Both the position numbers and the translations under genes were made by a program. Of a stretch of DNA of 54,224 bases, positions 10,187-50,837 are shown in pieces. How positions within the stretch are numbered: the first letter of the stretch is position 1; the number at the start of each line of letters is the position of its first letter. The notes below the pieces were generated by a model. It was not told where the DNA came from, did not search any database, and saw only the letters and a program-made list of their open reading frames with translations. The stretch is taken from assembly GCA_002162755.1 (NCBI GenBank), contig MAAS01000031.1, positions 2,678-56,901 on the forward strand. Reading direction: 5' to 3'. This DNA comes from Gammaproteobacteria bacterium 50_400_T64. Its GTDB lineage: Bacteria > Pseudomonadota > Gammaproteobacteria > Pseudomonadales > Porticoccaceae.

Positions 10187-10273
10187 GCCCAGGTGGTGAA
10201 ATTGGTAGACACGCTAGCTTCAGGTGCTAGTGATCGCAAGGTCGTGGAGGTTCAAGTCCTCTCCTGGGCACCA
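10187..10273 (+). tRNA. tRNA-Leu(CAG)
   Basis: Complete 87-nt class II tRNA including the encoded CCA. Acceptor GCCCAGG pairs with CCTGGGC; D-arm GGTGAAATTGGTAGACA; anticodon stem GCTAG/CTAGT with loop reading TTCAGGT, anticodon CAG (reads CUG); long variable arm TGATCGCAAGGTCGTG; T-arm GGAGG-TTCAAGT-CCTCT. Its 3' half is the integration site of the island that follows. Confidence 0.97.
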
Positions 10274-10279
10274 TTTCAA
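10214..10279 (+). repeat. attL: 66-bp direct repeat, left copy
   Basis: Starts in the anticodon stem of tRNA-Leu(CAG) and runs 6 bp past the CCA. It is identical to 50772-50837. The sequences diverge at once on both sides of each copy, as expected for att sites of an integrated element. The tRNA is kept whole on this side, next to the integrase. Confidence 0.93.
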
Positions 10280-11318: not shown

Positions 11319-11540
11319 CTAACCCTCCATCTCAGGCTCTTCATCAGCGATTTCCAAAAGGTCAGAAATCTCACACTTCAGATAGCGGCAAAGAGCTTCC
11401 AGCACATCAAATTCCACCCGCACCGCAGTCTCGTGGTAAAGCCGAGTAATCGTTCCTCGGTTAAGTCCGGTATCCCTTGCCACATCGGCAATTTTCAATT
11501 TCTTCTCGCCCATGATGCGAGACAAGTGGCACTTAAGCAT
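11319..11540 (-). CDS. Cro/C1-type HTH repressor of the element
   Basis: A 73-aa single-domain XRE protein. The helix-turn-helix is KLKIADVARDTGLNRGTITRL (residues about 15-35, given here in part), followed by VEFDVLEALCRYLKCEISDLLEI, the typical C-terminal half of the small YozG/Cro-like regulators, and an acidic tail. The ATG at 11540 is preferred to the in-frame TTG 6 bp upstream. It is divergent from the excisionase-integrase genes, the position of an element-encoded repressor; two related 15-bp sites lie in the shared promoter region. Confidence 0.8.
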   Translation of the reverse strand: MLKCHLSRIMGEKKLKIADVARDTGLNRGTITRLYHETAVRVEFDVLEALCRYLKCEISDLLEIADEEPEMEG

Positions 11541-11547
11541 CTTCAAA

Positions 11548-11562
11548 AGACCTTTTTGACCT
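11548..11562. promoter_or_regulatory. Candidate repressor operator 1
   Basis: AGACCTTTTTGACCT, 7 bp before the repressor ATG. Its reverse complement matches 12 of 15 bases of the site at 11620-11634. Likely autoregulation site; inferred. Confidence 0.45.
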
Positions 11563-11619
11563 TCTGCAGCACATTAATGCTTGCCACAGATCATAATAAT
11601 GGGTAAATTGACCTCTAGC

Positions 11620-11634
11620 AGATCAAAAAGACCT
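11620..11634. promoter_or_regulatory. Candidate repressor operator 2
   Basis: AGATCAAAAAGACCT, 33 bp before the excisionase start, a partly symmetric site (AGRTC-N5-GACCT). Together with operator 1 it brackets the divergent promoter region. Inferred. Confidence 0.45.
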
Positions 11635-11667
11635 ACCGCCATCTAACTTGAACACTAGGAAATCATT

Positions 11668-11883
11668 ATGACACGAACCTACCTGACAACCGAAGAGCTT
11701 TCAAAACGCATCAAATACACCCCTCGCACCATACGCAACCAGCTCAAAGACTCCGTCCTACTAGAAGGAGTCCACTACATCAGGCCCTTTGGTGGCCGAA
11801 AGATTCTTTATGTATGGGAAGAAATAGAGGAAGAAATGATTAAGCCCATAAATATCCAAAGATTGATGGCTGGAATTCATTAA
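11668..11883 (+). CDS. Excisionase-like HTH protein
   Basis: A 71-aa protein of the MerR-like/AlpA excisionase type: TYLTTEELSKRIKYTPRTIRNQLKD is a winged-helix recognition region, followed by a hydrophobic VHYIRPFGGRKILYVWEEIEEEM wing. Such proteins bend DNA at att sites and direct excision, and some act as activators. Start ATG with AGGA at suitable spacing. It ends 11 bp before the integrase gene, so the two are one operon. The role comes from fold and position. Confidence 0.75.
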   Translation: MTRTYLTTEELSKRIKYTPRTIRNQLKDSVLLEGVHYIRPFGGRKILYVWEEIEEEMIKPINIQRLMAGIH

Positions 11884-11894
11884 GGGGAAGAGTA

Positions 11895-13076
11895 ATGGGA
11901 ACTGTTAATCAACGTGGTGGAAAGCTATTTATTGATTTTCGCTACCAAGGCATACGCTGCCGAGAATACACAAAGCTTGATGAGGAGCCCAAAAATAGGA
12001 TACGTTTGAAAAAACTAATCGAACGTATCGAAGCAGAAATATTACTTGGCAACTTTGATTATGCCAATTACTTCCCCAACTCTAAGCGAGTCAATGTGTT
12101 CGACAGCATTGATCGGCGTAAAACGAAAAGCCTTGCCTGCACACCAAGCTTTGCCGATTTTACAGAAACCTGGTTTGCCGAGATGAGTGCTGAGTGGCGA
12201 AGCTCTTACACCAAGAGCACGCGACTTACTTTGAATAAATATCTTCTCCCGACATTTGGGGCAGAGTCCATCAATACAATCAAAAAGGCTGATGTGTTGG
12301 CCTTCAGAGCAAAACTGGTCAGTATGCGGGGGGAGAGTCGGACTAAACAAATGTCGGCCTCTCGCATCAATCACATCATGATGCCACTAAGAATGATTTT
12401 AAATGAGGCATCGGACCGCTTTGAATTTGTTACCCCATGGCAAAATATTAAACCCCTAAAGGTTCCTCGCACGGAGGTAGAGCCCTTTGACCTTGACGAA
12501 GTAAACACTATTATCGAACAGGTGCGGTCAGATTTCCGTAGCTACTATACAGTGCGGTTTTTTACTGGGCTGCGCACAGCCGAGATAGACGGCTTAATGT
12601 GGAGCAAGATAGATTTTAAGCGTCGACAAATACTGATTCATCAAACTTGGGTAGAAGGAGAGTTTGTACCCACGAAAAATGATGGCTCCTATCGGGCCGT
12701 TGACATGTCATCAATGGTTTACGAAGCACTGCGCGATCAACATCAGATGACAAAAGATAAACCCTACGTGTTCTGTAACAGCGTTGGCCGCCCACTTACG
12801 CATCAAACGGTAACAAATAAAGTATGGCACCCCTTATTACGCCATCTAGGCTTAAGTAAAAGAAGGCCGTACCAAACACGCCATACCGCAGCAACTCTAT
12901 GGCTGGCTGCAGGTGAGTCTCCAGAATGGATAGCCAAGCAAATGGGCCACAGCAATACTGAGATGTTGTTCAAAGTATACAGCCGCTATGTTCCAAACCT
13001 AACAAGGCAGGATGGTAGTGCGATGGAACGCATGCTGGAGCAACACTCTGAACAAAAAAGTAAAAACAAGGAGTAG
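11895..13076 (+). CDS. int: Tyrosine-type site-specific integrase
   Basis: A 393-aa tyrosine recombinase that should catalyse integration at and excision from tRNA-Leu(CAG). N-terminal arm-binding domain (about 1-65, GTVNQRGGKLFIDFRYQGIRC, DUF3596-like), SAM-like core-binding domain (about 85-185), catalytic domain with Arg in FTGLRTAEIDGL (about 224), RHTAATLW (about 329), GH in KQMGHSNTEM (about 351) and the Tyr in FKVYSRYV (about 361). All key residues are present. RBS AAGGGGAAGAG before the ATG. It reads away from the tRNA, next to attL, and is followed after 3 bp by a small unknown gene. Confidence 0.93.
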   Translation: MGTVNQRGGKLFIDFRYQGIRCREYTKLDEEPKNRIRLKKLIERIEAEILLGNFDYANYFPNSKRVNVFDSIDRRKTKSLACTPSFADFTETWFAEMSAEWRSSYTKSTRLTLNKYLLPTFGAESINTIKKADVLAFRAKLVSMRGESRTKQMSASRINHIMMPLRMILNEASDRFEFVTPWQNIKPLKVPRTEVEPFDLDEVNTIIEQVRSDFRSYYTVRFFTGLRTAEIDGLMWSKIDFKRRQILIHQTWVEGEFVPTKNDGSYRAVDMSSMVYEALRDQHQMTKDKPYVFCNSVGRPLTHQTVTNKVWHPLLRHLGLSKRRPYQTRHTAATLWLAAGESPEWIAKQMGHSNTEMLFKVYSRYVPNLTRQDGSAMERMLEQHSEQKSKNKE

Positions 13077-15144: not shown

Positions 15145-18100
15145 TCATGAAACACGGGCTCCCGAACAAAGAACGAACATGAGACGATTTATTTGCTTTT
15201 TACTCGTTAACGTTCCAGATAGTTTTCGAATATTCAAAATAATATGCTGCTTTCTATTCTGCGTTCCTTTTTCTAAACTCTGATATTTTGACTTGAAACC
15301 TAATTCCGACAACCCCAATTTATTCAGCCTTCCTCTCACACTAGGATCTTTAATAGCCTGACCTTTAGATTGATAAAAAGCTCTATCTAAAACGACCCCA
15401 ACATCAATCAAGATGCTGACAAACGCAAATAAGTCATAATCATCATCAAAGAAATATTCTGAAGTACTTGAATGATAGGATCGACACCATGCTTGCAGAG
15501 CCTCTTGCAACGCATCAGGTTTATCGACTGCGATTATTTTTTTTAGTGCATTATCAACATTATTCCACTCAACTACGTTACGAAACTCTTCTGCTTGTGG
15601 CTCCGCTATAGCATCGCTTATCGCAAACCGTTCATAACCCGATACCTTTTCCGCTTGTGCTGCCAAATCGACGACAGCATTAACAATGTTTTGGGATAAA
15701 CTCATTCTCTGAGATGTTATGCTGACATCTCGACCATGTACGGCATAATTCGCGAGAAGACTGTGCACAACCACATAAGACAAGTCTTTTGAAACAGGTA
15801 GATAAAGGTCGTCGATAGAAATTTCCAGGGTCTCCACAAGCAGCACCGGCGGAGCTTGTGGATGGACGATTTCTTCCTTTAACCAGCTCAATAAATGGTG
15901 CGCTTCACGAGGCACTGCCAACCGATGACGCTTTTTTCGTATAGCTGCTTCTTTCCGGCCTAAAAGCAACCCCAACAGGCGATCACTTAAAGCGGGCATA
16001 TAGCACTGCGTATCAACCAGACTCATCCAATCGAGGATATGCAGATAACTATGAACGCTGGTACCCATTTCACTATGACCTAGAAGATCACTAATACCTC
16101 TAAGCCCGGTTACGCCTAGTGGCGCGGCTGGCTCTTGCCAACAGGCTGCATTGGTTTGCGTCGGTCGCAGCAAGTTAAAGAGTCCGGATTCTTTGCAGTT
16201 ATGCTTACCCCAAGGGCCATTCAACAACATTAATCGGCATGCGTAAGCATGTCGTAGGTGGTGAAAATGAACACGCCTATCCCCCGAGACGCGCTTAAGC
16301 AGTGCATTAATAATACGACTGACTAAAGTCTCATCGTATTTTTCTTTTAGATATGGATCTATACATAAGAACTCTCCTCCATTACTTTGGTTAACACCCA
16401 TCGTTTCTGGACGAGATAACATTGTCCCTACAAGCTGTTGCTCCTCTAGGGATATATTTTCCATTAACGGCACCATTCTTCTAGCGCTTGCTGATTTGAG
16501 TCTCCGCTCACTATTAGCCTGTACATTAATATAGAGACTAGACGGTGCGCGAAAGATAATGTCTGATTCCAATAGGGCGTATGATTCAGACCAGCGAAGG
16601 CCGAAGCGGTATCCTATGAATAATATCCATGCACAAAATTGATATTCTCGACGAATTTCACCCTGCTCAAGTAAAAACGATAACGCGAGCTGGTATTCTT
16701 TTGGCGTTATAAGATTTGCGTCCACTTTTCCACTGGTATTTTTACTTCCTGCTAGAGCAAAAATATCTGACCAATCAATTGCAGGGGCACGCCAGTTACG
16801 AACCAGGTAATCATGAAAATCATATAGCCTAGCAGCCAGGTTTTTCATCGCACCTATCGTGCTGCCTTCGACCACCTGTAGATAGCACTGCTGCCACTCA
16901 TCTGGATCGAAGTAGAGAACGCCTTCCGACATAAACTGGTGCATTTTATTGACAACGACGCACATATAATCGACGACTGTTTGAGATTGAATGTCGTTAT
17001 TATGCCGAGTTTTATTCTGGCACAGCCATATACCCCAGCAGCTGATAAGCTGCAAAAGAATCGGTAGTTCTTTACTCACCAAAATACCATTCAAGCACGT
17101 TGCTAGGTATGCTTTTTTCTGTCTTACAGATAGTTTTCCATTTCGGAATTTCTGCTTCTTTTTCTGGGTTGACGCATACTTATCAATGGCCTCAACTGTC
17201 AAAATATTGCGAAGATCATGATTAAATTCTGACAGGGATGTCATCCTTTTTGTTTTTACTGAAGAGGTAAGACTAGGTTCATAGCCTGATAGTAATTCAG
17301 GAGTCTGATGAAACTCTAAAAGTGCTCGCCCATAAATGAGGCGCGCATAAACTTTTAAATCGAACGGGGTATACTGCAGAGCACCAGACGAAGCCGCACT
17401 AACTGGGCCTGATGATTCAAATCTACTCAGTGTCTTTGCAATTTTTGAAAGGGTGAGAATGGTTAGTTTTACATTTTTATTTTGAAACCCAAGTCCCTTA
17501 GAAACAACCAGCAACTCTTTTTTTGCAAGTGAACTATCTAGAGAATCTTGTTCAGAAATACGTTTTGATAAAGCGGCTGTAACAGGATCAATGAACAAAA
17601 ACGGACTTCCTACAGTGGGTTCTTTTACACCAACCTGTAGTCCCATCACGCACTTCATTTCAACCAGAACACATGATCCATCAAGAACCTTCATTAGACT
17701 TTTATCGCTAGTTTCAAGAGAAAATAGAGCGAAGCAAAAAACCCTGATAGCGTTCTTCTGATACAGACCTACCTGACATTGGTCTTTCGCTATTTCCTCC
17801 ATATAACTAATGAGATTTTTACGGACCCGAACGGCTTGATTGTAATCATAAACATCTGACCGCTTCCACTGAGTCGCCTCCAGCCTCTCAATCCGCCCCG
17901 ACAAAAAGGTTGTCATCCTCGAGTTATTCTTCAAATATTGTGCAGAATATCTGGTAAAAAGTGCCAATGAATATTTAACCGGCAAGCTGTTTGTACGCAA
18001 CCGGTCTGCAAGTCGATTATAAATATCTTCGATTTGAGCTACTTGTAAATGTTCTTTTTTCTCAAGCTCGAGATCAACTTCTGATAGTAACTCCCTAATA

Positions 18101-18939
18101 AGCACCTTTACCCTATTTCGTTTTACTTCTCGACGCTTAAATCGCGAAACTGAACCCAGTTCCCTATTCAAATTAACAAACCTAGGCAAGCACTGCTCTT
18201 GAGAGAACTGTGGCCTGAAACTGCTCACCCGAGGCCTCCAACCCTCCGCCACTAATGCGTGATTCAAAAATTTATTAATATGCTGTCGTATATCACCATG
18301 AGATTCATGACAAAAATTCCCATTAGGTAGCACACGAGACTCCATATGCCCTAAACAACAAGCAGCTAGCCACGATGGAGCACCTTGGTTGACCAGAGTG
18401 GTTGCAATCCATTTTCTATGTATGTTCGATGGCACGGGCGTGTAGCGATAAAACATTTCACTAATATCAGTATTAGAAACACCCTCAACTCTTTCATTTC
18501 TTATGAAAAAAAATAGAGGCAGTTTTTGCGACTGCCTATAAGCAAGCATTTTCTCAAGCTCAAGCCTCAATTCTGACTGGGTTCGAGGCCTCAAAAATAT
18601 AATTAGATTTTTCAGATGATTAATGTAGTGGGAAATTTGTTCTCGGGCGATATCAGGAAGATACGCGAGCCGGTAGCGACGCGACTCGTTAGTCGCCTTA
18701 TCGTCAACCAATGCCAACCCAGCAGATTCATCCAACTGATATCGATAGCAAAATGGATCTTCTACTGGCCTATGCCCTGTTCCAAAAAGCATCAAGGCTA
18801 ATGTGTATTCAACATAGACATTATGATATTCGATCAGATTCTTGCGATCAGTATTATCGAGCTTGGCTTGTAAACCGGTGCTAATTTTTTCAACCGCATC
18901 GACAGGGGGCTCCCAAAGCCCTTCAATATTCATATCCAT
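15145..18939 (-). CDS. Giant tyrosine recombinase (1264 aa) with two catalytic-like regions
   Basis: About three times the length of a normal integrase. The C-terminal region carries a full active-site set: Arg in FGLRWSES (about 782), HHLRHAYAC (about 892), LLGHSEMG (about 955) and the Tyr in VHSYLH (about 963). The first 230 residues look like a second catalytic half without its own core-binding domain: GTGHRPVED (Arg57), then IHRKWIATTL where Arg175 fits the second Arg but His is replaced, then LGHMES (His198), with no clear Tyr. About 500 residues of helical sequence separate them. It overlaps the 508-aa gene by 10 bp, so the two are translationally coupled. Likely role: recombination of a mobile element nested in the island. 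The double layout is what I see; the function is inferred. Confidence 0.75.
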   Translation of the reverse strand: MDMNIEGLWEPPVDAVEKISTGLQAKLDNTDRKNLIEYHNVYVEYTLALMLFGTGHRPVEDPFCYRYQLDESAGLALVDDKATNESRRYRLAYLPDIAREQISHYINHLKNLIIFLRPRTQSELRLELEKMLAYRQSQKLPLFFFIRNERVEGVSNTDISEMFYRYTPVPSNIHRKWIATTLVNQGAPSWLAACCLGHMESRVLPNGNFCHESHGDIRQHINKFLNHALVAEGWRPRVSSFRPQFSQEQCLPRFVNLNRELGSVSRFKRREVKRNRVKVLIRELLSEVDLELEKKEHLQVAQIEDIYNRLADRLRTNSLPVKYSLALFTRYSAQYLKNNSRMTTFLSGRIERLEATQWKRSDVYDYNQAVRVRKNLISYMEEIAKDQCQVGLYQKNAIRVFCFALFSLETSDKSLMKVLDGSCVLVEMKCVMGLQVGVKEPTVGSPFLFIDPVTAALSKRISEQDSLDSSLAKKELLVVSKGLGFQNKNVKLTILTLSKIAKTLSRFESSGPVSAASSGALQYTPFDLKVYARLIYGRALLEFHQTPELLSGYEPSLTSSVKTKRMTSLSEFNHDLRNILTVEAIDKYASTQKKKQKFRNGKLSVRQKKAYLATCLNGILVSKELPILLQLISCWGIWLCQNKTRHNNDIQSQTVVDYMCVVVNKMHQFMSEGVLYFDPDEWQQCYLQVVEGSTIGAMKNLAARLYDFHDYLVRNWRAPAIDWSDIFALAGSKNTSGKVDANLITPKEYQLALSFLLEQGEIRREYQFCAWILFIGYRFGLRWSESYALLESDIIFRAPSSLYINVQANSERRLKSASARRMVPLMENISLEEQQLVGTMLSRPETMGVNQSNGGEFLCIDPYLKEKYDETLVSRIINALLKRVSGDRRVHFHHLRHAYACRLMLLNGPWGKHNCKESGLFNLLRPTQTNAACWQEPAAPLGVTGLRGISDLLGHSEMGTSVHSYLHILDWMSLVDTQCYMPALSDRLLGLLLGRKEAAIRKKRHRLAVPREAHHLLSWLKEEIVHPQAPPVLLVETLEISIDDLYLPVSKDLSYVVVHSLLANYAVHGRDVSITSQRMSLSQNIVNAVVDLAAQAEKVSGYERFAISDAIAEPQAEEFRNVVEWNNVDNALKKIIAVDKPDALQEALQAWCRSYHSSTSEYFFDDDYDLFAFVSILIDVGVVLDRAFYQSKGQAIKDPSVRGRLNKLGLSELGFKSKYQSLEKGTQNRKQHIILNIRKLSGTLTSKKQINRLMFVLCSGARVS

Positions 18940-20456
18940 AACTTTTTTAGAACTTCACGATAGCTATCCTGAAGAAGTTGAATATTCACATTCGCATAGT
19001 AGGAGATAATCGGTGGACGCTCGATTTCAGCTCCAGTGATCAAATAAGCCGCCAACGCGCCAACTGTGCTGACAGTTAAGAATCGTTTCGCTGCATTTTC
19101 AACCATGGACTCAGTTAAACGATAACGCCCATGGTCCCGCACTTCTGTTAGAATATTTCGACAACGTTCTAATACTTCAATTTCTGTGCCTATTGATGCA
19201 GGAGGAGAAACCATCCCCCGAGCATTTACATACTCTGACATCCAGTTTTTCAGTTCAGAGGGTAGTTTTAACTCTAGGTGGCTATACGGCTCCCGCCATT
19301 TACCTACGTCCCGCCCGCTGGGTTTGTAGCATGATGGCACAGGAGGGATTTTACGGATATACACCCCTTTAGGAGAAAATCGATTATCGCTAAAGTTACG
19401 AAGAAGAACCTTAAAACCCAGCGATGTAAAATAGTTTAGCGAGATCAATCCTGCACAAAATACCTCGACCTTACTTCCAGACTCTAATTTTTCAGCGAGA
19501 AAAGAACTAATACGTTCACATTCCGGCTGAATAAGCAGCCCTGAATTATAGGGCGACATTAGTGTCGCCTGCTCAAGCCAGTATGCTGACCGTCGACGCT
19601 GCTGATTAAGGGCAACATCGAAATTCAGATCCTCTTGATTTACCATCTGCTGAAATAGAATCCCTGTCTCAGCAGGCTCCTCATTGTTCGCATTTACTTC
19701 TGTTCGAGGCTCTATAACCTCGTACAAGCCCTCCAGTTTACCTGCGTCATCTGCTCGTAGAGAAACAGTTGATAACTGTTGGATTGTCTTTTTTTGTTTT
19801 TTTATCCTAACAATTTCTTGAGCAGGTGCCAGCTTCGTCTTTCTATTTCTAATTTCAAAAAATCTTAAGCCGATCAGATAGCCTATAGCTCGAATAAAAT
19901 CTTTCTTTGTCTTATGAAGTTTTTGCGTCTTAGCTATTTCCTGCAACGTGTGCGCCAGCTTCACAGTGTAGTCAGGACAACTCGCGGAAGGCAGCATTTT
20001 GAAAATTTCATAACGAAATGGAGGAGTCAATTCTCGCCCTTTTCTGATCTCATGCGCAACGCTATCCACCACTGAGTCACTAATATCGGAACAAATAACA
20101 AACTCTATTAATAAGATTTTTAAGCCATAAAATTGGCTTTTTCTCTCAGAGCTAACAGGTTGAAGAATGCACGCTAGAAATTCTAACTTAGATATCATTC
20201 CAGAGACAGGGTTCGACTGAACACCTCTCGTAATATGTCGATCAGGCTCCCCGTATTCTTTCAAATACTTCTGTGTCACTTCATGAATTTTTTTCCAAAT
20301 GGCTTCTTTTTGCAGCCTTATATCAATAGCTAACTGACTTAGATGAGCTAGCTCCTTCATGTAGATATATGATAATTCAGACGTGCTAGATATCCCTGCC
20401 AGACGGTGTAAACCCTGATACGTATCTATTTTCCCTAGAGTATACGTATCTCTCAT
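18930..20456 (-). CDS. Tyrosine-recombinase-fold protein, degenerate (508 aa)
   Basis: First gene of the pair. The N-terminal 280 residues are helical. The C-terminal 200 follow the layout of a tyrosine recombinase catalytic domain: FCAGLISLNYFTSLGFKVLLRNF (shown in part), then LELKLPSELKNWM, then MVENAAKRFLTVSTVGALAAYL, then IISYYANVN and LLQDSYREVLKKL. The first catalytic Arg and the His of HxxR are not where expected, so it may be an inactive partner, like the recombinase-fold helpers of multi-recombinase elements. The stop lies inside the start of the 1264-aa gene (ATG overlap). The upstream 350 bp holds its promoter and an IS3 relic. Confidence 0.55.
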   Translation of the reverse strand: MRDTYTLGKIDTYQGLHRLAGISSTSELSYIYMKELAHLSQLAIDIRLQKEAIWKKIHEVTQKYLKEYGEPDRHITRGVQSNPVSGMISKLEFLACILQPVSSERKSQFYGLKILLIEFVICSDISDSVVDSVAHEIRKGRELTPPFRYEIFKMLPSASCPDYTVKLAHTLQEIAKTQKLHKTKKDFIRAIGYLIGLRFFEIRNRKTKLAPAQEIVRIKKQKKTIQQLSTVSLRADDAGKLEGLYEVIEPRTEVNANNEEPAETGILFQQMVNQEDLNFDVALNQQRRRSAYWLEQATLMSPYNSGLLIQPECERISSFLAEKLESGSKVEVFCAGLISLNYFTSLGFKVLLRNFSDNRFSPKGVYIRKIPPVPSCYKPSGRDVGKWREPYSHLELKLPSELKNWMSEYVNARGMVSPPASIGTEIEVLERCRNILTEVRDHGRYRLTESMVENAAKRFLTVSTVGALAAYLITGAEIERPPIISYYANVNIQLLQDSYREVLKKLWI

Positions 20457-20789: not shown

Positions 20790-21215
20790 TCTACAGATTA
20801 GCTTTATCTCGCGGTGATCATCGACTTATACAGCGGTCTAGTTGTGGGTTGGTCTATGAGTCATACCATGGAAAAACGATTAGTCATCCAAGCTGTATTG
20901 ATGGTACTTTGGCAGAAGCAGCACGAAAACTCTGTGGTGTTTCATTCCGGTAGAGGCTCGCAGTTCACCATTCATGAATACCAGCGATTCCTGACGGATC
21001 ACAATATCGTATCCAGTATTAGTGCGGTTGGAAGCTGTTATGACAATGCAGCGACTGAAAGCTTTTTTGGATTATTAAAGCGTGAGAGAGTTAAGCGCCG
21101 ACATTACACGACTCGATCGGAGGCTCGTTCAGATATATTTGATTACATTGAACGGTTTTATAACCAAAAGAAGAAACGTAAACTGAAGAACAATCACCAA
21201 GCCGCCCTTAACTGA
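20790..21215 (+). pseudogene. IS3-family transposase (orfB) C-terminal relic
   Basis: Catalytic part of an IS3-type DDE transposase: TD-stop-LYLAVIIDLYSGLVVGWSM, where TAG replaces the Trp of TDWLYLAV; then VVFHSGRGSQFT, where Gly replaces the second catalytic Asp of HSDRGSQ; then GSCYDNAATESFFGLLKRE with the Glu; then FDYIERFYNQKKK. The 5' half including the first Asp region is lost. Nonsense mutation, catalytic loss and truncation make it dead. Confidence 0.85.
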
Positions 21216-21940: not shown

Positions 21941-22387
21941 TTAAATCAATCGATTATCGTAGGGGTGGGATTGAGCATTAACAATTTTGGCATTCTTGGC
22001 AAGTTCGTGCCGAGGGTTTAGTAGGTAGTTATAGCTGTGTGGGATCAAGGCAGATGGAATCTTGAGTAATGCACTGCTGAGAGATGCCAACCATTCGTCA
22101 CCGGCACTACGGGTGCTATCACTATCACTCTGCCAAGCCTCAGGTAGCATTGATGTATCAAGCCGAGAAATTCCTTTCCGGCCAGTATATTCAACCTCAA
22201 GCAGCTGATAGGTGTCTGGAACTTCGGAAAGATCTAACTCGAAATGGACGAAGACTTCCAGCATAGCCAGAGCGGGACTTTCAGAGAGATAAACGACGGG
22301 GATGCCCCTGTTATGCCACCGCCCCGGTGTTTTGAGGCCTCCGATGCCTCTCAAGTCAGCGTAGTTGCTGATACGCCACAACTTCAA
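21941..22387 (-). CDS. RES-domain toxin (NAD+-degrading type), copy 1
   Basis: A 148-aa RES-domain protein; the family (MbcT, ParT, Res) consumes NAD+ or modifies targets with its ADP-ribose, arresting growth. Conserved features: LWRISNYAD with the N-terminal Arg, GRWHNRGIPVVYLSES, ALAMLEVFVH with the Glu, and a C-terminal NPRHELAKNAKIV. Length is normal for the family. The start codon overlaps the stop of the upstream antitoxin gene (ATGA), the standard coupled antitoxin-toxin order. Confidence 0.88.
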   Translation of the reverse strand: MKLWRISNYADLRGIGGLKTPGRWHNRGIPVVYLSESPALAMLEVFVHFELDLSEVPDTYQLLEVEYTGRKGISRLDTSMLPEAWQSDSDSTRSAGDEWLASLSSALLKIPSALIPHSYNYLLNPRHELAKNAKIVNAQSHPYDNRLI

Positions 22388-22851
22388 GCAAAGTACCCGG
22401 AATCAATTTGGTTCAGGGTGTCTTCCACCAGATGGGCACCGGCTTCCGTTTGAATAAGATCCGTTGCGGTTTGGTCGCCAAATTTCTTGCGTGGCTTGTG
22501 GAGCCAAATAGAGGCTTTGTCCTGGTTGCCAAATACTTCAAGAGCCAGCGCCTGGGTTTTAGCGGCACGTAGCCAGCGACCTGATTCTTCCTGAGTTAGA
22601 GGTTCTTTCTTGTTCTTGCGGTGTGTCAGTGTGCGCGGCTTAATGATCCAGCCAAGCTCTGCAGGTAAGGCCCCTAATTTCTTGATTTCATCGAACGTAA
22701 CCACGGAAATACCATTCTGAGTTAAGCGAACCTCATCCATGTCGTTTTCCAGGCTAACACCGACAATTTTACTCAGGCGTATACGCGCCCTGGTCATGGC
22801 GGTCTTTGTGAGTTGCTTTGAGGGTTTAAATGTTTGGGCTAAAGAGCTCAT
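22384..22851 (-). CDS. Xre/MbcA/ParS-type antitoxin of RES toxin, copy 1
   Basis: A 155-aa antitoxin with an N-terminal DNA-binding part and the C-terminal toxin-binding DUF2384 domain: ASIWLHKPRKKFGDQTATDLI, then TEAGAHLVEDTLNQIDSGYFA (each shown to 20 residues or fewer in essence), the hallmark ending of the family. It should bind and block the RES toxin and repress its own promoter. A perfect 12-bp inverted repeat stands just upstream. First gene of a two-gene operon. Confidence 0.9.
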   Translation of the reverse strand: MSSLAQTFKPSKQLTKTAMTRARIRLSKIVGVSLENDMDEVRLTQNGISVVTFDEIKKLGALPAELGWIIKPRTLTHRKNKKEPLTQEESGRWLRAAKTQALALEVFGNQDKASIWLHKPRKKFGDQTATDLIQTEAGAHLVEDTLNQIDSGYFA

Positions 22852-25995: not shown

Positions 25996-28203
25996 TCAGA
26001 CAGCTAGCTGATTCAGGATCCATTGCTTAGCAGCTGTAGAGTTAAACGCCTTTCGCCCATAGCCTTCGGTCAATAAATCTTCAGGCAGATACTCATCATA
26101 TTTTTCAACCAGTTTTTGCTGAATAGTAAGGGCTCCTGCCAGTTCAGTTTCATCCGGTAGCTCATCATTTGCTAGATCTATCAGATAGTTCTTTATATCA
26201 CCTGAATTTGAATTTTGCACTTCAATAACACCACCAAAATCACTACATACAAACCCACCCCTAATGAGTAAAACAGTAAGGGTGTTAACTACTTTATCGC
26301 CCATCCATGAGAAAATATAACAGTGATTACCGCTTTGATAGATGGGTTGCCTTCCTAGGCTGGCATCTTTAAAAAGATCCACTCCCTCTTGAAATAGCTG
26401 CCTTCCGAGATTATCCACAAAATCTATTTTCTGATTGCCTAGCTCAATGCGATAGTCACCAGTACGATAGATATTTAGCATCTCTTGCCGAACCCTGTCA
26501 TGAATCAACATACCGCTACCGTTAAACTTGGGAGGTTTACCACCTTTTGTAGAAGTAACATAGATAACTTTTTTGTCATCATCAATATCTGTTACTTTCC
26601 ACCTTCTGCCCCCAAATATAATGTGCTGATCCTTAAGGATAAGAGTGTCAACTGGTAGCGTTCCAAGCGTTTTACTTCCGGCTACGATGCGGAATTCTTC
26701 CGGTGTTTTAAAGACGGCATAGAAGGTATAGGAATTTGTAATACGTTCGCCTTCAATCCCCAAAACCAATTCACCGCTATTTAGCTGCTGTATCAATTGG
26801 ACTGTCCCCATATGGGACAAGAGCTGCTTGAAGTGCTGAACAGATATTTCTTTGAAAGACCCCTGCTCACATAATAAAGAGTAAAGCTGGTCTGCTCTGA
26901 CGCTACCCCACTGTGCTACCATGGCAAGGATCTGGTGCAAGAATGTAGAGAGATGCATTTGCTCTGTATCTGCTGGTTCGAACCAATTACTTACAATGAG
27001 TAACCGTATCATTGCCAGGGACTGAACCAGCTCTAACCTTAGACCATCCACGATATTAGATTTATCGCTCAATTCATTTTCAGTGATGAGCATTCTTAAA
27101 ATGGAAGGAGAATCCCTTCTACCAGATCGCCCCAACCGCTGACGTAAACTTGAGACAGAGTGGGGGGCAGTAACCTGTATTACAGAGCTCACTTTCCCTA
27201 TGTCGATACCTAACTCTAATGTCATGGTACAAATAGCTGTAGTCGGTAGGGTTTCCTTCTGCAATCTCGCTTCTAAATCTTCTCGGAGTTCTTTGGCTAA
27301 CGATCCGTGATGAGGGAAAAACTCATTCGGTACGACTTGCTGTTCGCACAAGTCACTTAATTGTGCGGCAATGCTTTCCGTTCGGCTCCGACTATTTGCA
27401 AATACCAGGTGTGAATCACCTCTACAGAGTTCATAAATTTCCTGACAGATCTGTTGTTCGGCAGATGTACATGTCTTATCAGACATAATATCAGTAGGCT
27501 CTAAATACCCTCTAACCTGCACTTTAATAGTACTTTGGTGCTTACTGCTAGTAATCGTTTCACAAGGCAGGCTTTTATTCGGCCTGAGAGAAAGGGGGAC
27601 TTTTTCAAGCTCTCCGAGTGTCGCACTTAGAGCCACCCGTGGAATCGGGTTGGAAAATCGCCCTGTAATATGCTCGAGACGAGTAAGAAGAGAGAGCAAC
27701 TGTTGACCGCGCTCCGTCCCAATAAACGCGTGAAATTCATCTATCACAATATATTTAAGTGAAATAAAGGCTTGCTTTACCCATCCCGCTTCTCTTACTA
27801 AGAGCGATTCCAATGATTCAGGAGTGATGAGCAGAATGCCTGAGGGATTATTTCTGGCCTTCTTTTTTTTTGATTGGAGGCTGTCACCATGCCACGGCGT
27901 GACCTGCATATCCAACATCTCACTTAAAGATTCTAGCCTGCGGTACTGATCATTAATCAGTGCTTTTAAAGGGCTGATATACAGAATACCAAAGCCACTT
28001 TTATCTTTTGCAATCGCACTACATGCAGGCAGAAAAAACGCTTCTGTTTTACCTGCCGCCGTTGATGCACTAATCAGCACATCCCGGTCGCCGGACAGGA
28101 TTGGTTCAATTGCCTTTTTTTGAATTTCTCTTAAATCAGGCCATCCCTGATTAAACAACCACTTTTGAACACGCTTATCAAGGCGTTGATATTCCTCTAT
28201 CAT
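25996..28203 (-). CDS. Lhr/BrxHI-like DEAD/DEAH-box helicase
   Basis: A 735-aa SF2 helicase. Motifs in order: IQKKAIEPIL (Q-like), SASTAAGKTEAFF (Walker A, about 45-55), ISPLKALINDQ (Ia), ITPESLESLL (Ib), VIDEFHAF (Walker B, about 157), ALSATLG (III), then the second RecA domain with LVFANSR, MTLELGIDIG and LRQRLGRSGRRD (VI, about 355). The C-terminal 350 residues are the extended part seen in Lhr-type helicases. BrxHI of type 2 BREX has this design and size. It overlaps the upstream ATPase gene by 4 bp (ATGA), third gene of a three-gene operon. Confidence 0.85.
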   Translation of the reverse strand: MIEEYQRLDKRVQKWLFNQGWPDLREIQKKAIEPILSGDRDVLISASTAAGKTEAFFLPACSAIAKDKSGFGILYISPLKALINDQYRRLESLSEMLDMQVTPWHGDSLQSKKKKARNNPSGILLITPESLESLLVREAGWVKQAFISLKYIVIDEFHAFIGTERGQQLLSLLTRLEHITGRFSNPIPRVALSATLGELEKVPLSLRPNKSLPCETITSSKHQSTIKVQVRGYLEPTDIMSDKTCTSAEQQICQEIYELCRGDSHLVFANSRSRTESIAAQLSDLCEQQVVPNEFFPHHGSLAKELREDLEARLQKETLPTTAICTMTLELGIDIGKVSSVIQVTAPHSVSSLRQRLGRSGRRDSPSILRMLITENELSDKSNIVDGLRLELVQSLAMIRLLIVSNWFEPADTEQMHLSTFLHQILAMVAQWGSVRADQLYSLLCEQGSFKEISVQHFKQLLSHMGTVQLIQQLNSGELVLGIEGERITNSYTFYAVFKTPEEFRIVAGSKTLGTLPVDTLILKDQHIIFGGRRWKVTDIDDDKKVIYVTSTKGGKPPKFNGSGMLIHDRVRQEMLNIYRTGDYRIELGNQKIDFVDNLGRQLFQEGVDLFKDASLGRQPIYQSGNHCYIFSWMGDKVVNTLTVLLIRGGFVCSDFGGVIEVQNSNSGDIKNYLIDLANDELPDETELAGALTIQQKLVEKYDEYLPEDLLTEGYGRKAFNSTAAKQWILNQLAV

Positions 28204-29525
28204 AATTTGAAATCAGCGAGCTCATCAGAATTTAAAATTTCGCCAGTCTCCTTGTCTACAATAACTTCATCCGTATTACTGGGGCGATCTCCTTCAATAG
28301 CTACCGACTGAACTAGCTGAGACCATTGCATAGAAGGATTTTGATCCAATACTGCCAACATATCTAAAAATGCTTTGATCGTGTTTCTAGGTGTACGGAA
28401 ATAAGCATCTCCAATAGTCTGACTGCAGTGGTGTAGGAATGATTTTAGCGCATCATCCGGAACCAGATATTTTGAAGTATCACCTTCAGCAAATACATGT
28501 CGCAAGTTCTTCAAGAGAATATACAGTTCCTCCGGCGTTAAGCTCGCTAAATGTAGCGCAGGGGATGAATAATCAATAACGCCTGCACGCTGCGCAAAGC
28601 TGTTTTCTGCTAAGCGTGACTGCAATGCTTCATAACTATATAGTCCTCTACGGGGATCCAATAAAAACTCTGGTGTTCCACCCAACAGGAATCCAATATA
28701 TTCTGCTGAACCCTGAAGGCAGTCATTTAAAATCCGTAAAATTTGCTCATAGTTTGATGTACGAGCCTGCGTGCTGCTTAACTTATAAAGGTTAACCATT
28801 TCATCCAGGTTAACGAGCAAGCCTTCATAGCCCGCCTGACGGACAAAAAGGCTCATAAGTTTTAACGCATCATAAAACGAACTATCTGAAATAATCGTCC
28901 TGACATCAAGATCCCTTCGAGCATCAGTCTTAGTAGTGTATTCGGCACGCAACCAACGAATAGCGTTAGATTTTAGCTCTTCATTATCCTGCTCATGACC
29001 GCTCCAGTAAGCATCAATAACTTTTGCAAAATCATATCCGCCAACCAGCTCTGATAGAGATGCTAGCTTTTGATGTATTACGGCCGAAACATCAGTATTC
29101 TTTTCAGCCGCTTCTTTACGAGCCTGGGTTACAAACCGCTCTACAACACTAGCTAATGCATTTCCGTCCGGCTTATTACGGGTTGCCAGATTTCTCATAA
29201 GTTCAGAATAAAGATTCCGTGCCTGACCTGAAGAACCGTGTACACGTCGATCTGGTGAGAGATCCGCATTGACCGTAACCAGTTTCTTTTCAAGGGCAAT
29301 AGAACGCACCACACTTAGAAAAAACGTTTTTCCTGACCCATAATCACCAATGATAAGTCTAAACGCTGCGCCACCTTCTGAGATTCTTCCAATATCCTTG
29401 TACAACGCTTTGACTTCATTGCTTCGCCCTACCTGTATGTGCTGAATCCCAATCTTGGGAGTCACGCCGGATTTCAATGACTGAATGATAGCGTCACGCT
29501 CTTTTAATCGGATCCGTTTTTCCAT
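28200..29525 (-). CDS. BrxD-like P-loop ATPase (DUF2791)
   Basis: A 441-aa AAA/STAND-like ATPase. Walker A is IIGDYGSGKTFFL (about residues 57-69), preceded by IQVGRSNEVKALYKDI; Walker B is GLLVNLDEMVNLYK (about 235-248). LLGGTPEFLLDPRRGLYSYEAL and FRTPRNTIKAFLDML match the features I know from the BREX ATP-binding proteins called BrxD or DUF2791. It lies between a TerB-domain gene (5 bp gap) and the helicase (4 bp overlap). BrxD and BrxHI occur together in some BREX loci, but no pglX, pglZ or brxC homologue is present here. Confidence 0.82.
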   Translation of the reverse strand: MEKRIRLKERDAIIQSLKSGVTPKIGIQHIQVGRSNEVKALYKDIGRISEGGAAFRLIIGDYGSGKTFFLSVVRSIALEKKLVTVNADLSPDRRVHGSSGQARNLYSELMRNLATRNKPDGNALASVVERFVTQARKEAAEKNTDVSAVIHQKLASLSELVGGYDFAKVIDAYWSGHEQDNEELKSNAIRWLRAEYTTKTDARRDLDVRTIISDSSFYDALKLMSLFVRQAGYEGLLVNLDEMVNLYKLSSTQARTSNYEQILRILNDCLQGSAEYIGFLLGGTPEFLLDPRRGLYSYEALQSRLAENSFAQRAGVIDYSSPALHLASLTPEELYILLKNLRHVFAEGDTSKYLVPDDALKSFLHHCSQTIGDAYFRTPRNTIKAFLDMLAVLDQNPSMQWSQLVQSVAIEGDRPSNTDEVIVDKETGEILNSDELADFKL

Positions 29526-29530
29526 AATAC

Positions 29531-31801
29531 TTAACCCTCTATCTCTTCTACGATTTCCTGATCGACATAAATAGCATCACCATCCTCTTCAAGTACAGCC
29601 GCATCTACCTTATCAAATGACCAGTCATTAATAACCTCCAATGCTCCACTTAGCATCAAACCCGAATCACGGCACACTGCTTCTACTTCATCACGTGACC
29701 ATTTATCTTTCCCTATCAGGCTTTCAAACAGAGAATAATGTTGCTTATCAATTCCGGGCTCTACCTCTGCAGCAGTATTCACAGCTGCTTCATTGGGCTC
29801 GCCTGCGGCTTCATCCTCCATAAATATCGCGCCTAACATGCTTTGTACATCTTTAGTCTCCGATTCATGTATTGCTAGAATACTTTCATTCAGCTGGAAT
29901 GAAGGAGAGGCAGGCGCACTAGTTTCTGATTGAGAGCTTGAAGGGCCTAAGCCAGCCTTACTTGATGACATTCCATGAATGTCTCTAGTAACAAGCGTTT
30001 TATCGAGACCTAGCAGGGTATAGAGTTTTTCGAGTTGCTTAATTTCTTCCGGATCTATTTTTCCATCTGCCATCGCAACACCGACAAGTATGCGGCTTAC
30101 AGCTGATTTTTCAGTTTTTCCGAGTAACTTCACTCTGCCTTTTAAACCTGTGGCATTTGAAGGTGTATTAAGTCTCCATACCAAATAGGCATGCAGTGAT
30201 CGTTTCTCGGTAGGCGATAGATTAGCATCATGGTCAATGAGCTGAGTTAATGAAATTAATTCCGCCTGATCAACATGTGAATCAATCGTGGCGACCATAG
30301 CCCCTAGACGCAGCGCCATACCCACTTCACTAAATGCTTTGGATGGTTCAAAATATTTACCGTGTCCTTCAGAAAATAGAACCAGCATTCCATCTACGCT
30401 CGTCTTAGCATGATGGTAACGTGTATCGGGGGCTATGCCATAACCAACTTTCTGTGCAAGATTCTGAATTAATTCAGCTTCCTTCTTATTAATCTTGGAA
30501 GGTAAAGGTGACTTGGTATATACCCAAAACTCTTCAACATTAACCAGACCATTCTTTGTTGAAATTGCATCACCTGCCCATTTCTTAAACTTCCCTAAAC
30601 CTAGCGAAGCTCCCAAATCACCAAGGTCGTCCGGTAGCAACAATAGGGCCTCAATATCAGTGCGGGAAGTGTCTGGTTTGGCGAGATACCGGCTATAGGC
30701 GTCTAATTCAGACGTACATTCATCTGCGATGGCAATAAGCTTATTTACGGGGCCTTTCAAGTGACTTGGGTCAGGAAGATCCTGTTGGGGAAATGATATG
30801 CCATGCAGGGAAGAACTGGCGGGATGATACGCAATCTTTAATCGTGTTTTATTGGGCTTGACGATAATGCCGCCCCCATATTTTTCACTATAGATACGTG
30901 TAAACATCTGGTTGAATTCATAGCCACAACGCCGTGCTGGTTTCTTCAGATTATAATCCGGATAGAACCGAATCCATGCCAATGCCAGTTCAGCGTGGAC
31001 TGGTTTCCCCTCGCTTACTGTAGTGGCAAGTCGATGTTTAAATAATAGGGAATCGCGTTTCGGGCTTCTTTCCAGCTCCGGATGTGATACTACGTGAGGC
31101 CGTAGCAGGCACATAATTTCCAATAGCCGTGTGGCGTAATTTGAAAATGAACGACTACTGCCGTAAATGCCCTGTAATCGTAGTACCTCATCAAAAAGCG
31201 CTTTAAATTCCGTGTCTTGTACTGTTTGATTTATCGAATCAACCGTAATGCGCCTCTCGAGACCATAGAAATAAATAAACACATAACCTAGGGGTGTCTC
31301 TGGATCAGCTCTGTTGCCGGCAAGCCAGTTAAGGAACGCACCACGCCCTTTAGGTGTGAGTGAGATAAACTTAGGCCAATACCCTAAACTTTCATCTTCA
31401 AAACTGGAAGGTTTGTTTTCAACTTTTAGCGAATCGTCAACCAGTGACGCCTCCACTCCATATCCGTCTAATGAACTGAGTTTTCCACCAAAATAAAAAT
31501 TACCGCTAGAATATTCTTCCCCCTTTATGATGATCGGCTCACCGGGCTTTATCCATTTCCCCGGCGCTTTGTTTTTACTTTTTTCTTCATCATAACCATA
31601 AGAAATACTGAAGGTAGCCAGATCGTCATCATCACGATTACTATTCGCTACTACCCGATTGCTTGTGGTCATGGTTACACGAATTTCATTTTCGGAACTT
31701 GGTTGACTAACCTTCTTAACTTGCTGCTTTGAGGCCGCTACTATTGCTTTGATGGCGTAGTACAAAATTACTGCGCCTCCTATTAATTGCCAGAGTGTCA
31801 T
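29531..31801 (-). CDS. Membrane-anchored TerB_N-TerB-TerB_C protein
   Basis: A 756-aa protein. Residues about 3-23 (LWQLIGGAVILYYAIKAIVA) form a membrane anchor. TerB_N follows (about 80-190): KWIKPGEPIIIKGEEYSSG, LSSLDGYGVEASLVDDSL, LNWLAGNRADPETPLGYVFI and FYGLERR. A TerB-like helical domain is near 560-620 (VSRILVGVAMADGKIDPEEI). TerB_C closes the protein (DKWSRDEVEAVCRDSGLM, INDWSFDKVDAAVLEEDGD). Proteins of this architecture are known from Ter-linked stress and antiphage loci. First gene of the operon; RBS TGAGGGA before the ATG. Confidence 0.88.
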   Translation of the reverse strand: MTLWQLIGGAVILYYAIKAIVAASKQQVKKVSQPSSENEIRVTMTTSNRVVANSNRDDDDLATFSISYGYDEEKSKNKAPGKWIKPGEPIIIKGEEYSSGNFYFGGKLSSLDGYGVEASLVDDSLKVENKPSSFEDESLGYWPKFISLTPKGRGAFLNWLAGNRADPETPLGYVFIYFYGLERRITVDSINQTVQDTEFKALFDEVLRLQGIYGSSRSFSNYATRLLEIMCLLRPHVVSHPELERSPKRDSLLFKHRLATTVSEGKPVHAELALAWIRFYPDYNLKKPARRCGYEFNQMFTRIYSEKYGGGIIVKPNKTRLKIAYHPASSSLHGISFPQQDLPDPSHLKGPVNKLIAIADECTSELDAYSRYLAKPDTSRTDIEALLLLPDDLGDLGASLGLGKFKKWAGDAISTKNGLVNVEEFWVYTKSPLPSKINKKEAELIQNLAQKVGYGIAPDTRYHHAKTSVDGMLVLFSEGHGKYFEPSKAFSEVGMALRLGAMVATIDSHVDQAELISLTQLIDHDANLSPTEKRSLHAYLVWRLNTPSNATGLKGRVKLLGKTEKSAVSRILVGVAMADGKIDPEEIKQLEKLYTLLGLDKTLVTRDIHGMSSSKAGLGPSSSQSETSAPASPSFQLNESILAIHESETKDVQSMLGAIFMEDEAAGEPNEAAVNTAAEVEPGIDKQHYSLFESLIGKDKWSRDEVEAVCRDSGLMLSGALEVINDWSFDKVDAAVLEEDGDAIYVDQEIVEEIEG

Positions 31802-38955: not shown

Positions 38956-41088
38956 TCAAAACGATGCTGTAAACCCGACCCCTCTTTTTTCACTCAACAC
39001 TCGACCCTGCACCTCATCCTCCAAACCATCTACCAACCCCAGCGCAGTAATACCATCGTCGGTTAGAGATAACCTCCTGACAACGGTTTTGAAGTCGCCA
39101 GGCGTTAAGTAATTAAATTTCAGCATTCGCTCTTCAACACTTGCCTTGTTGCGGCCAAAGGCCAGCTTATATTTTTTAAAGATAGATTGAAAAAACCCCC
39201 AGGCCTTTTCAGGTTCAAGATAGTTAAATTCAATCTTAAGATCGAAACGTCGCGCTGCAGCACCATCCAGCATATTACGATGATTGGTACAGGCTAGAAG
39301 GACACCATCAAACTCTTCCATCTGAACTAATAGCTCATTCACTTGTGTGACTTCCCAGGAGTGACTCGCACTGACTCTTGATCGAAGCAGACTATCTACT
39401 TCGTCCAGTAGCATAATAGCCCCCTCATCTTTACTCTTCTTAAAGGCGTTGGCTAAGTTTCTCTCTGTCATACCGACGTATTTCCCCAATATGTCTGATG
39501 CACGGAATTGACACAATGGCTTATTGAGTGCGTCAGCCAAATGTAAGGCAAAAGCTGTTTTCCCCGTACCGGGGGCTCCGTAACATAACAATCTTCCCTC
39601 GCCCCTTCTTTTCAGTCCCTTGATTAACGATCCCATCTCAACATTGGTATTGATGAGATCAATGCTATAGGGCAATGCCAGGGTGTTATTGTTTTTTGGA
39701 AGATTCAGAACAGGGTGACCCATTGCGCTTAGTGCGCCGTTCGCCAGGTTTTCAAATAAAACCCGCTCTTCGTCATCACCCTCTACATTAACCTGAGCCA
39801 TCACCTGTGTGACCTTGCTGATTAACGCGGGGCTAAGATGTCTGTTTTCAGATGCAGCACCAACCCAGTCACCCTTTCTCAGCCCATTTTTCTGGCAGGC
39901 CATTTCAATAAGCTTTCGTCTCGCCCCAGCTGACATTGAACGAAGGTTTATCACTATGTCGAATCGGCGTATATAAGCAGGATTGATGTGATCAACATGG
40001 TTAGCCGACCAAAATACGGGGACTATATTTGTCTCAAGTTGCTGATTAAACCAACCTTTTTTTGAATTACTAGCACGTGATTCTCTACCCCAGATATTAT
40101 CTGAGCGGGGGAAAACATCCTCCATTTCATCAAAGAGTAGAACTGTAGATTTTCTCTTTTCCAATAGCTGCTGACTTAACAAAAAAGCTGATAACCTGGA
40201 TGATCCTACCAGAGCCTCGTTATCAGAATCTACAGACTCTACTTCAAAAAGATCCACACCAATATCGCGGCAAAGCGTGTGTACTAATTGAGTTTTCCCT
40301 ATGCCTGGCAGGCCATAAATGAGGATGTTAGACCCAACCGTTCGCGCCTTGACGACACTCTTCAGATAACTCTTAATTAAGTCGTATTCCCCTCGATAGT
40401 CATTAAAGTTTTCCGGGCTGAGCAACGGTGGTTTTGCTTGTTTCACAAACTGTTCAATAAACCTGTGTTTATCTTGATGCGGTACAGACAGGCAATCACC
40501 CAAGCGATAATATGGCTTGAGCTTATTACCTAAACTATCTGCCGATGATGTCATTCTAATAAGCCCTGATTTGAACAACATTGAATCAGGGTCGACCGCT
40601 TGTGTAAGGGCGGCCTTTGGTCGATTGAGAATCACCGCTAACGCTTCAATAATATCTCCTCGCGTTAGCCGTTCTCCCAGTAGATCTAGCGCTTCATCTA
40701 ATTCTTCACACTTACTTCTTAACAGTAGAAATTCCAAAAGCTCTTCTTCAACTCTTGACAAAGAGAAGGCCGATCCCAAATTTTTTATGTTCTCAGAAAA
40801 GACACCTTTTATTTCGGCTACACTTGATTCCAGCTCCCTTAGTTTAGATGCCAATCGAATCGGTACGAAAATATCTTCATCGCTTTCCCCTGAATCACGC
40901 TGTATTCCCAGGTAGCCCACGTAAAGTTGAGCATCGGGACGAAACCCCCTTCCAACTTGTCTATAGCAGTTTAAATCCAGGAATATCCTTAAAATCCAGA
41001 TCATTATTTGTGATTTATGCAACACCTCTGTGGAGGGCTGCTCTGGGGTATAATTGGCGTTGAGCGGTTTGAACTTATCAGTCGTCAT
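38956..41088 (-). CDS. Tandem AAA+ ATPase (Ycf46/SpoVK-like), 710 aa
   Basis: Two AAA+ modules. The first has Walker A YGLPGIGKT (about 260) and Walker B VLLFDEMEDVF (about 316) with HINPAYIRRFD as second region of homology. The second has YGAPGTGKT (about 503), MLLDEVDSLL (about 556) and AAARRFD. The N-terminal 230 residues are helical with no family seen. No protease motif or membrane segment. The RBS AAGGG precedes the ATG. It is divergent from a WYL-domain regulator, sharing a 106-bp control region. Role unknown; unfoldase or remodeller likely. Confidence 0.82.
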   Translation of the reverse strand: MTTDKFKPLNANYTPEQPSTEVLHKSQIMIWILRIFLDLNCYRQVGRGFRPDAQLYVGYLGIQRDSGESDEDIFVPIRLASKLRELESSVAEIKGVFSENIKNLGSAFSLSRVEEELLEFLLLRSKCEELDEALDLLGERLTRGDIIEALAVILNRPKAALTQAVDPDSMLFKSGLIRMTSSADSLGNKLKPYYRLGDCLSVPHQDKHRFIEQFVKQAKPPLLSPENFNDYRGEYDLIKSYLKSVVKARTVGSNILIYGLPGIGKTQLVHTLCRDIGVDLFEVESVDSDNEALVGSSRLSAFLLSQQLLEKRKSTVLLFDEMEDVFPRSDNIWGRESRASNSKKGWFNQQLETNIVPVFWSANHVDHINPAYIRRFDIVINLRSMSAGARRKLIEMACQKNGLRKGDWVGAASENRHLSPALISKVTQVMAQVNVEGDDEERVLFENLANGALSAMGHPVLNLPKNNNTLALPYSIDLINTNVEMGSLIKGLKRRGEGRLLCYGAPGTGKTAFALHLADALNKPLCQFRASDILGKYVGMTERNLANAFKKSKDEGAIMLLDEVDSLLRSRVSASHSWEVTQVNELLVQMEEFDGVLLACTNHRNMLDGAAARRFDLKIEFNYLEPEKAWGFFQSIFKKYKLAFGRNKASVEERMLKFNYLTPGDFKTVVRRLSLTDDGITALGLVDGLEDEVQGRVLSEKRGVGFTASF

Positions 41089-50771: not shown

Positions 50772-50837
50772 CTAGCTTCAGGTGCTAGTGATCGCAAGGT
50801 CGTGGAGGTTCAAGTCCTCTCCTGGGCACCATTTCAA
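50772..50837 (+). repeat. attR: 66-bp direct repeat, right copy
   Basis: Exact copy of 10214-10279: the tRNA-Leu(CAG) 3' half plus 6 bp. It lacks the 5' half of the tRNA and so is not a gene. Marks the right end of the 40.6-kb island. Confidence 0.93.

Follow-up and report, generated by a model that had tools for sequence, protein, structure and literature searches.

The 54,224-nucleotide window analysed here, a stretch of contig MAAS01000031.1 from Gammaproteobacteria bacterium 50_400_T64, carries on its minus strand two genes whose products resemble tyrosine recombinases (YRs) to different degrees: a protein of 508 residues (P0002, here M1) and one of 1264 residues (P0001), within which residues ~1–245 are termed M2 and residues ~265–1264 M3 (Table 1). 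An original prediction, made from the DNA letters, had given the coordinates and overlap of both open reading frames (ORFs), and both were recovered, the overlap measuring 10 nt. Its proposal that three YR-fold modules are spread over the two overlapping genes is supported, the fold of M1 being assigned by profiles only. For P0002, no match in Pfam, NCBIfam or PADLOC is credible. P0001 has only sub-threshold matches in NCBIfam, to XerC and XerD in M3 together with weak ribonuclease P ones, and phmmer against PDB sequences returned nothing credible for it. Here we describe the three modules, hereafter the trio, their relatives and the genomic island in which they lie, and discuss how they may act together.

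Three modules in two overlapping genes

M3 contains the full catalytic set R-K-HxxR-H-Y within a YR catalytic domain. The match to the Phage_integrase domain (PF00589) at residues 773–904 scores 27.1 bits, exactly the gathering cut-off, and the complete active site that had been read from the C-terminal part of the 1264-residue protein is indeed present and is kept among 39 relatives (R782 in 38, K815 in 38, H893 in 37, R896 in 39, H955 in 38 and Y965 in 39).

The first ~230 residues of the same protein had been credited with a second, catalytic-like half. The residues named for it (R57, R175 and H198) are in place, with Phe209 at the nucleophile column, and to them can be added the invariant K81, which the prediction missed. 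In an alignment of 36 family members R57, K81, G197 and H198 are identical throughout and R175 is found in 35, while the nucleophile column holds Tyr in eight, Phe in eight (the window's Phe209 included), His in four and other residues in 16; the M2 of the window accordingly has no catalytic tyrosine of its own. Pfam reports Archaeal phage integrase at residues 150–204 below threshold (E 0.09), and a family profile of 25 members aligned to two canonical integrases gives hhalign probabilities of 74% and 84%. When the Halopseudomonas M1M2 fusion was modelled with AlphaFold from a six-row alignment, the M2 part (561–790) received a predicted local distance difference test (pLDDT) score of ~74, a mean over blocks of ten residues that range from 40 to 92. 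Foldseek with the whole fusion model finds an integron integrase, a staphylococcal integrase and XerD as best PDB matches (E 2e-3 to 3e-3), all of them YRs and none with E below 1e-3. The assignment of M2 as a YR catalytic domain is thus well supported.

The C-terminal part of M1, which had been called a degenerate recombinase-like terminus, is likely a YR-like domain. Its profile aligns with that of M2 over 185 columns with a score of 34.7 and a probability of 53% (hhalign), compared with scores of 16.5 for the best of 60 block-shuffled M2 profiles and 12.4 for reversed M2; against M3 the probability is just 13%. The four best PDB matches of the window's M1 model are Cre and P2 integrase, non-significant at E 0.7 or more, and with a profile match on one side and a poor model on the other the earlier description stands as likely but weaker than that of M2. 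Most catalytic residues are missing from M1, which does not hold the full set within one domain: the column of the GH-type histidine, which follows a conserved glycine, has His in none of the 36 rows. Just two of its 508 columns are identical in at least 34 rows, Tyr487 and R138, both in all 36, and R138 sits in a gap-filled alignment block that makes its invariance doubtful. A second alignment (default settings, 19 fused proteins) agrees: Y516 is the sole invariant residue of the M1 part, and beyond it G552, R603, D626, K627, R637, N720, R723, G746 and H747 are invariant, among them R603, K627, R723 and H747 of M2.

Relatives and gene boundaries

A search of 369 Gammaproteobacteria genomes with P0002 matched two others, both with the same gene order and one with a truncated second gene, and a contig scan confirmed four of 75 candidate stretches (two Arenicella records, the metagenome-assembled genome (MAG) S010_25 and one Halopseudomonas MAG). 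At E 1e-3 a profile of five M1M2 fusions matched 20 of 398 proteobacterial genomes and a 19-row M1M2 profile 18 of the 369 Gammaproteobacteria, own genome and weak matches included in both counts. Among plasmids, tblastn found 182 records with P0001, of which 180 are from Acinetobacter, and 241 with the Halopseudomonas M3, of which 234 are from Acinetobacter; P0002 found none. In the plasmid records examined the trio is annotated as hypothetical protein or integrase. A phage origin was rejected, no phage record being matched in tblastn by P0001 or the Halopseudomonas M3, and the 25 IMG/VR stretches matched by pattern with the M1M2 profile include no relative.

The order of the modules is the same in all three layouts seen among the 36 members. 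M1 stands apart from fused M2M3 in three (the window, Arenicella and S010_25), M1M2 is fused with M3 separate in 27 (Halopseudomonas, Aeromonas, Vibrio, Ketogulonicigenium, Acinetobacter and others; in one, G009, M3 is off the contig), and a single ORF of 1473–1941 residues covers all three modules in six; the M3 matches of G015 and G223 are weak. Copies with incomplete M1 or M2 were left out of the 36 (G701, the second copy in G663, G431, G604, G089 and G284), as were the Acinetobacter johnsonii and A. pittii copies, the second Arenicella record and weak matches. Because diverged relatives keep the module order, as the synteny check suggested by the original prediction bears out, the arrangement is more than chance, and chance ORFs are ruled out as an explanation. 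Judged by sequence comparison, the trio is a diverged proteobacterial family in which the order M1-M2-M3 is fixed and the gene boundaries are movable.

A quick tree of all 36 groups the rows with separate M1 together (Shimodaira–Hasegawa-like approximate likelihood ratio test, SH-aLRT, 98) and places a one-ORF form as their nearest sister (support 90). On this tree three changes of layout are required versus 8.5 in shuffles, and many long end branches leave the deep order unsure. Two of three ancestral genes had been suggested, as one of two possibilities, to have fused. Fusion does appear to have been involved, but the commonest layout joins M1 to M2, and the one-ORF sister of the window's group makes it simplest to suppose that all three modules were first joined and the ORF later split at a different point. 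Such a path would lead from M1M2 with separate M3, through a three-module ORF, to M1 with fused M2M3.

Upstream of M1M2, 24 loci carry a small gene. Its profile recovers 23 of these and one further locus, direct matches occur between some pairs alone, and one copy has a weak helix–turn–helix match; no such gene was found among the window ORFs. Where relatives have it, upstream of M1, the window carries an IS3-type transposase remnant (20814–21215; by eye). Two of three Acinetobacter plasmid copies inspected are damaged in M1M2 with M3 open in both (L005 4912–6865 and L006 4213–6477): in A. pittii an IS3-family element precedes an M2 ORF that is truncated, and the ORF of A. johnsonii is frame-shifted near its end. 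One Arenicella MAG has an integron-type integrase directly after M2M3 in convergent orientation (L010 14018–15007).

The island and its integrase

The trio is contained in a ~40.6-kb island (window 10214–50837) that is inserted at tRNA-Leu(CAG) and has an exact copy of a 66-bp direct repeat at each end. Near the left end lies the gene for P0009, an integrase with a PF12167 arm domain, which presumably made the repeat at the island ends.

Table 1 Positions of the trio and of the island features in the window
Feature	Window position	Strand	Remarks
M1, 508-residue protein P0002	18930..20456	−	C-terminal part (~280–508) likely a degenerate YR-like catalytic domain with invariant Tyr487
M1 Tyr487 codon	18996..18998	−	36/36 in family alignment
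M2M3, 1264-residue protein P0001	15145..18939	−	overlaps M1
M2 module, residues 1–245 of P0001	18205..18939	−	YR catalytic domain (well supported); R57, K81, N172xxR175, H198, Phe209 in nucleophile column
M3 module, residues 265–1264 of P0001	15148..18147	−	complete YR active site R782, K815, H893, R896, H955, Y965
Integrase P0009, PF12167/Phage_integrase	11895..13076	+	convergent with M2M3; probable island integrase
66-bp direct repeat, left copy	10214..10279	+	exact; overlaps 3' part of tRNA-Leu(CAG) 10187–10273
66-bp direct repeat, right copy	50772..50837	+	exact; right end of ~40.6-kb island

Integrases of the P0009 family (45–57% identity to P0009) lie within 7 kb of the trio at 13 of 43 loci, convergent with it in ten, in the same direction in two and upstream and divergent in one (by eye), and in one genus the trio block and the integrase block recur together near an island end (by eye). 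Across 369 genomes the trio occurs in 10 of the 12 integrase genomes versus five of the 357 others (p = 1.7e-14), with cuts that were chosen after the E-values had been seen (12 integrase genomes at 6e-168 or better, six at 2e-91 to 2e-61 being dropped; 15 trio genomes kept, three at 1e-5 to 9e-4 dropped) and with integrase profile seeds that came from six of these ten genomes. Leaving out the six seed genomes gives four of six versus five of 357 (p = 2.6e-6), and leaving out the seeds and the E-value cuts gives four of 12 versus eight of 351 (p = 3e-4); in the four non-seed genomes trio and integrase are on separate contigs. A shared tRNA target of the other integrases did not emerge from 12 loci scanned, tRNAs being present in L057 and L098 alone and none of them Leu. 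Upstream of the integrase, DNA conservation extends across distant loci (66% in 492 aligned columns; window 11374–11838, L055 12657–13141), and this stretch is perhaps an attachment-site region.

The original prediction also held that the recombinases could move DNA on their own inside the island, and this part is not borne out: a search of 13–23 kb of the window for terminal repeats of the trio gave short imperfect matches, none convincing, and an ordinary PF12167 integrase adjoins. On Acinetobacter plasmids no clear empty site appeared among the 50 of 224 matched records listed, in which matches were mostly due to IS66 or replication genes, and the ends of the trio were not definable by DNA homology, the loci being too diverged outside close pairs.

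Three genes of the island, at 25996–31801, match the Shango defence system (SngA, SngB and SngC; PADLOC E 7e-94, 6e-187 and 4e-272), and a double-AAA ATPase with partial IetA similarity (38956–41088) and a 1175-residue RNase H/helicase protein with partial MkoA and MkoC similarity (44457–47984) are possibly further defence cargo. At 21941–22851 an overlapping gene pair looks like a RES-type toxin with an Xre/MbcA-type antitoxin (by eye).

A possible divided active site

We put at about even the chances that the trio is a multi-module YR machine in which M1 donates the nucleophile to M2, forming a composite site, and M3 acts as a second recombinase. Only slightly less probable, in our estimate, is the bolder statement that this is a naturally bipartite YR, in which the nucleophile sits on one module and the other catalytic residues sit on another, and in which gene boundaries moved while the machine stayed unchanged. 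M1 would contribute the tyrosine, and M2 the arginines, lysine and histidine that serve as phosphate-binding and general-acid residues. In the window the nucleophile and the other residues reside on separate polypeptides, so that cleavage would be obligately in trans; where M1 is fused to M2 the tyrosine would come from the N-terminal side. Fusion of M1 to M2 in 27 of the 36 members, and a single ORF for all three modules in six, argue that the modules work together. The assembled complex would hold two kinds of active site, M1/M2 and M3, an arrangement that would suit a heteromeric recombinase on two unlike half-sites, as XerC/XerD bring two unlike active sites to two unlike half-sites. Together with the PF12167 integrase next to it, the trio would probably serve to excise, integrate or rearrange the island, and act likewise in related islands and plasmids.

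Precedents for parts of this scheme exist. In Flp a protomer lends its tyrosine to the active site of a partner, with the difference from the trio that all protomers are the same and each possesses the complete set. Bi-subunit topoisomerase IB, whose fold is kin to that of YRs, carries the remaining catalytic residues on its large subunit. In trypanosomatids its active site is divided between two polypeptides with the tyrosine on the small one, Tyr-222 in the Leishmania enzyme, a precedent in a related fold (PMC3759442). This is a eukaryotic topoisomerase, however, and in the trio the Tyr module comes first in the coding order. RIT elements consist of three consecutive separate recombinases, RitA, RitB and RitC. 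By description, RIT elements and Tn554 (TnpA, TnpB and TnpC) resemble the trio in encoding several recombinases together (table in PMC10214605, in part). SE elements share several YR-fold proteins in an overlapping operon, one of them without the full catalytic set, and a small accessory protein (PMC10214605), but SE IntA and IntB both have RHRY, whereas the trio splits this set over M1 and M2 and has a PF12167 integrase nearby. SEs are marked by IntA, Tfp, IntB and Srap and by a strand-biased circularization that leaves a 6-bp footprint. Against single SE-6945 proteins, IntA, Tfp and IntB among them (hhalign), the M1, M2 and M3 profiles reach 29% for M3 with IntA and below 4% for all other pairs, and SE membership was rejected on this comparison, which covered the SE-6945 proteins. 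GInts (ginABCD) likewise combine three YR-like proteins with one small protein in islands, GinC lacking the first Arg; fused or re-cut genes do not figure in the part of their description drawn upon, and the comparison of the trio with them is by description, not by sequence (PMC5385486). Pht-type GInts end in 10–11-nt imperfect repeats, unlike the exact 66-bp repeat of the window island, which lies in a tRNA gene. The IntBPP-1 subgroup of integrases has the PF12167 arm domain also found on P0009, a likeness by domain and not by tree, and the relevant part of PMC8138268 mentions no recombinase trio. No Gamma-Mobile-Trio (GmtX, GmtY, GmtZ) NCBIfam model was matched at E 1 by P0001 or P0002, the content of the library for these being unconfirmed. 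The open-access literature searched yielded no description of this trio or of a split YR site, subscription papers lying mostly outside that scope.

Several observations weigh against a composite M1/M2 site. Asn occupies the first HxxR position of M2 in 29 of 36 members, which could mean that catalysis has been lost; some M2 (eight of 36) retain Tyr at the nucleophile column; and phosphate contacts can stay conserved in DNA-binding pseudo-enzymes. M1 is not cleanly Tyr-only: the column read as Arg-I has Arg in 13 of 36, and M1:451 is basic in 29 (Arg in 22, Lys in seven) and might be an Arg-II remnant. The family sequences are very diverged, and for G171 and G403, which have no M1 profile match, the assignment of M1 is positional. 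Tyr487 is not put into the M2 pocket by any model. The structure and fold check proposed by the original prediction went well for the M2 of a relative, whose model matches YRs (best E 2e-3), but not for M1, which falls below pLDDT 50 in the six-row Halopseudomonas fusion model and reaches 53 when the window's domain is modelled alone (four rows). Nor do 30 of the 43 loci have a P0009-family integrase within 7 kb, some of them being cut by contig ends. The co-occurrence recomputed without seeds and cuts, together with the basic residue at M1:451, slightly lowers the odds we assign to the split site.

The main alternative, tentative and less probable, gives M1 and M2 a purely architectural role without catalysis: they would bind DNA and lend the synapse its shape, and M3 alone would cleave. 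It draws on the poverty of M1 in catalytic residues and on M2, which is without its own Tyr in 28 of 36 members and without the first His of HxxR in most. SE and GInt systems include a YR-fold protein without the full set, and the non-cleaving role proposed for Tfp and GinC offers a model for dead M1 and M2 (PMC10214605, PMC5385486). K81 and H198 of M2 and Tyr487 of M1, all kept in 36 of 36, speak against it. The lysine and histidine at the K81 and H198 positions are catalytic in YRs and not merely binding. The inactive partner domains of the original prediction thus remain one reading, and a shared active site agrees better with the invariance of the M1 tyrosine and of R, K and H in M2. It is very improbable that M2 is itself a complete cis-acting recombinase with its tyrosine elsewhere in M2, that of M1 being structural only: although eight of 36 M2 keep Tyr in the nucleophile column, no tyrosine is invariant in M2, and the best kept, Y45 (29 of 36), precedes Arg-I.

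Two further explanations concern the trio as a whole. We consider it unlikely that it is a mobile element of the GInt or SE kind, inserted into the island and moving by its own ends. Its presence on Acinetobacter, Vibrio and Ketogulonicigenium plasmids without a nearby island-type integrase would suit such an element, as would the extra small gene upstream in relatives, which recalls srap of SEs or ginD of GInts, but terminal repeats were not found around the window copy, the listed Acinetobacter records gave no empty site, no similarity to SE proteins by profile was seen beyond that of M3 with IntA, and the trio is associated with another integrase. Equally doubtful is that the trio is island cargo with a task other than mobility, such as cutting DNA in defence against phages or resolving plasmid multimers; Shango and other defence-like genes do share the island, and an Acinetobacter plasmid has the trio close to genes for replication and partition, yet PADLOC gives the trio no match and its association is with one integrase family.

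The trio represents a dispersed recombination system, with matches, weak ones and the own genome included, in 18 of the 369 genomes of Gammaproteobacteria and 20 of the 398 of Proteobacteria sampled, now linked to one genomic-island integrase family. If the divided active site is real, it would be a YR whose cutting depends on the assembly of unlike modules and thus has a built-in lock, and it would offer a handle on how YR complexes order their two strand exchanges.

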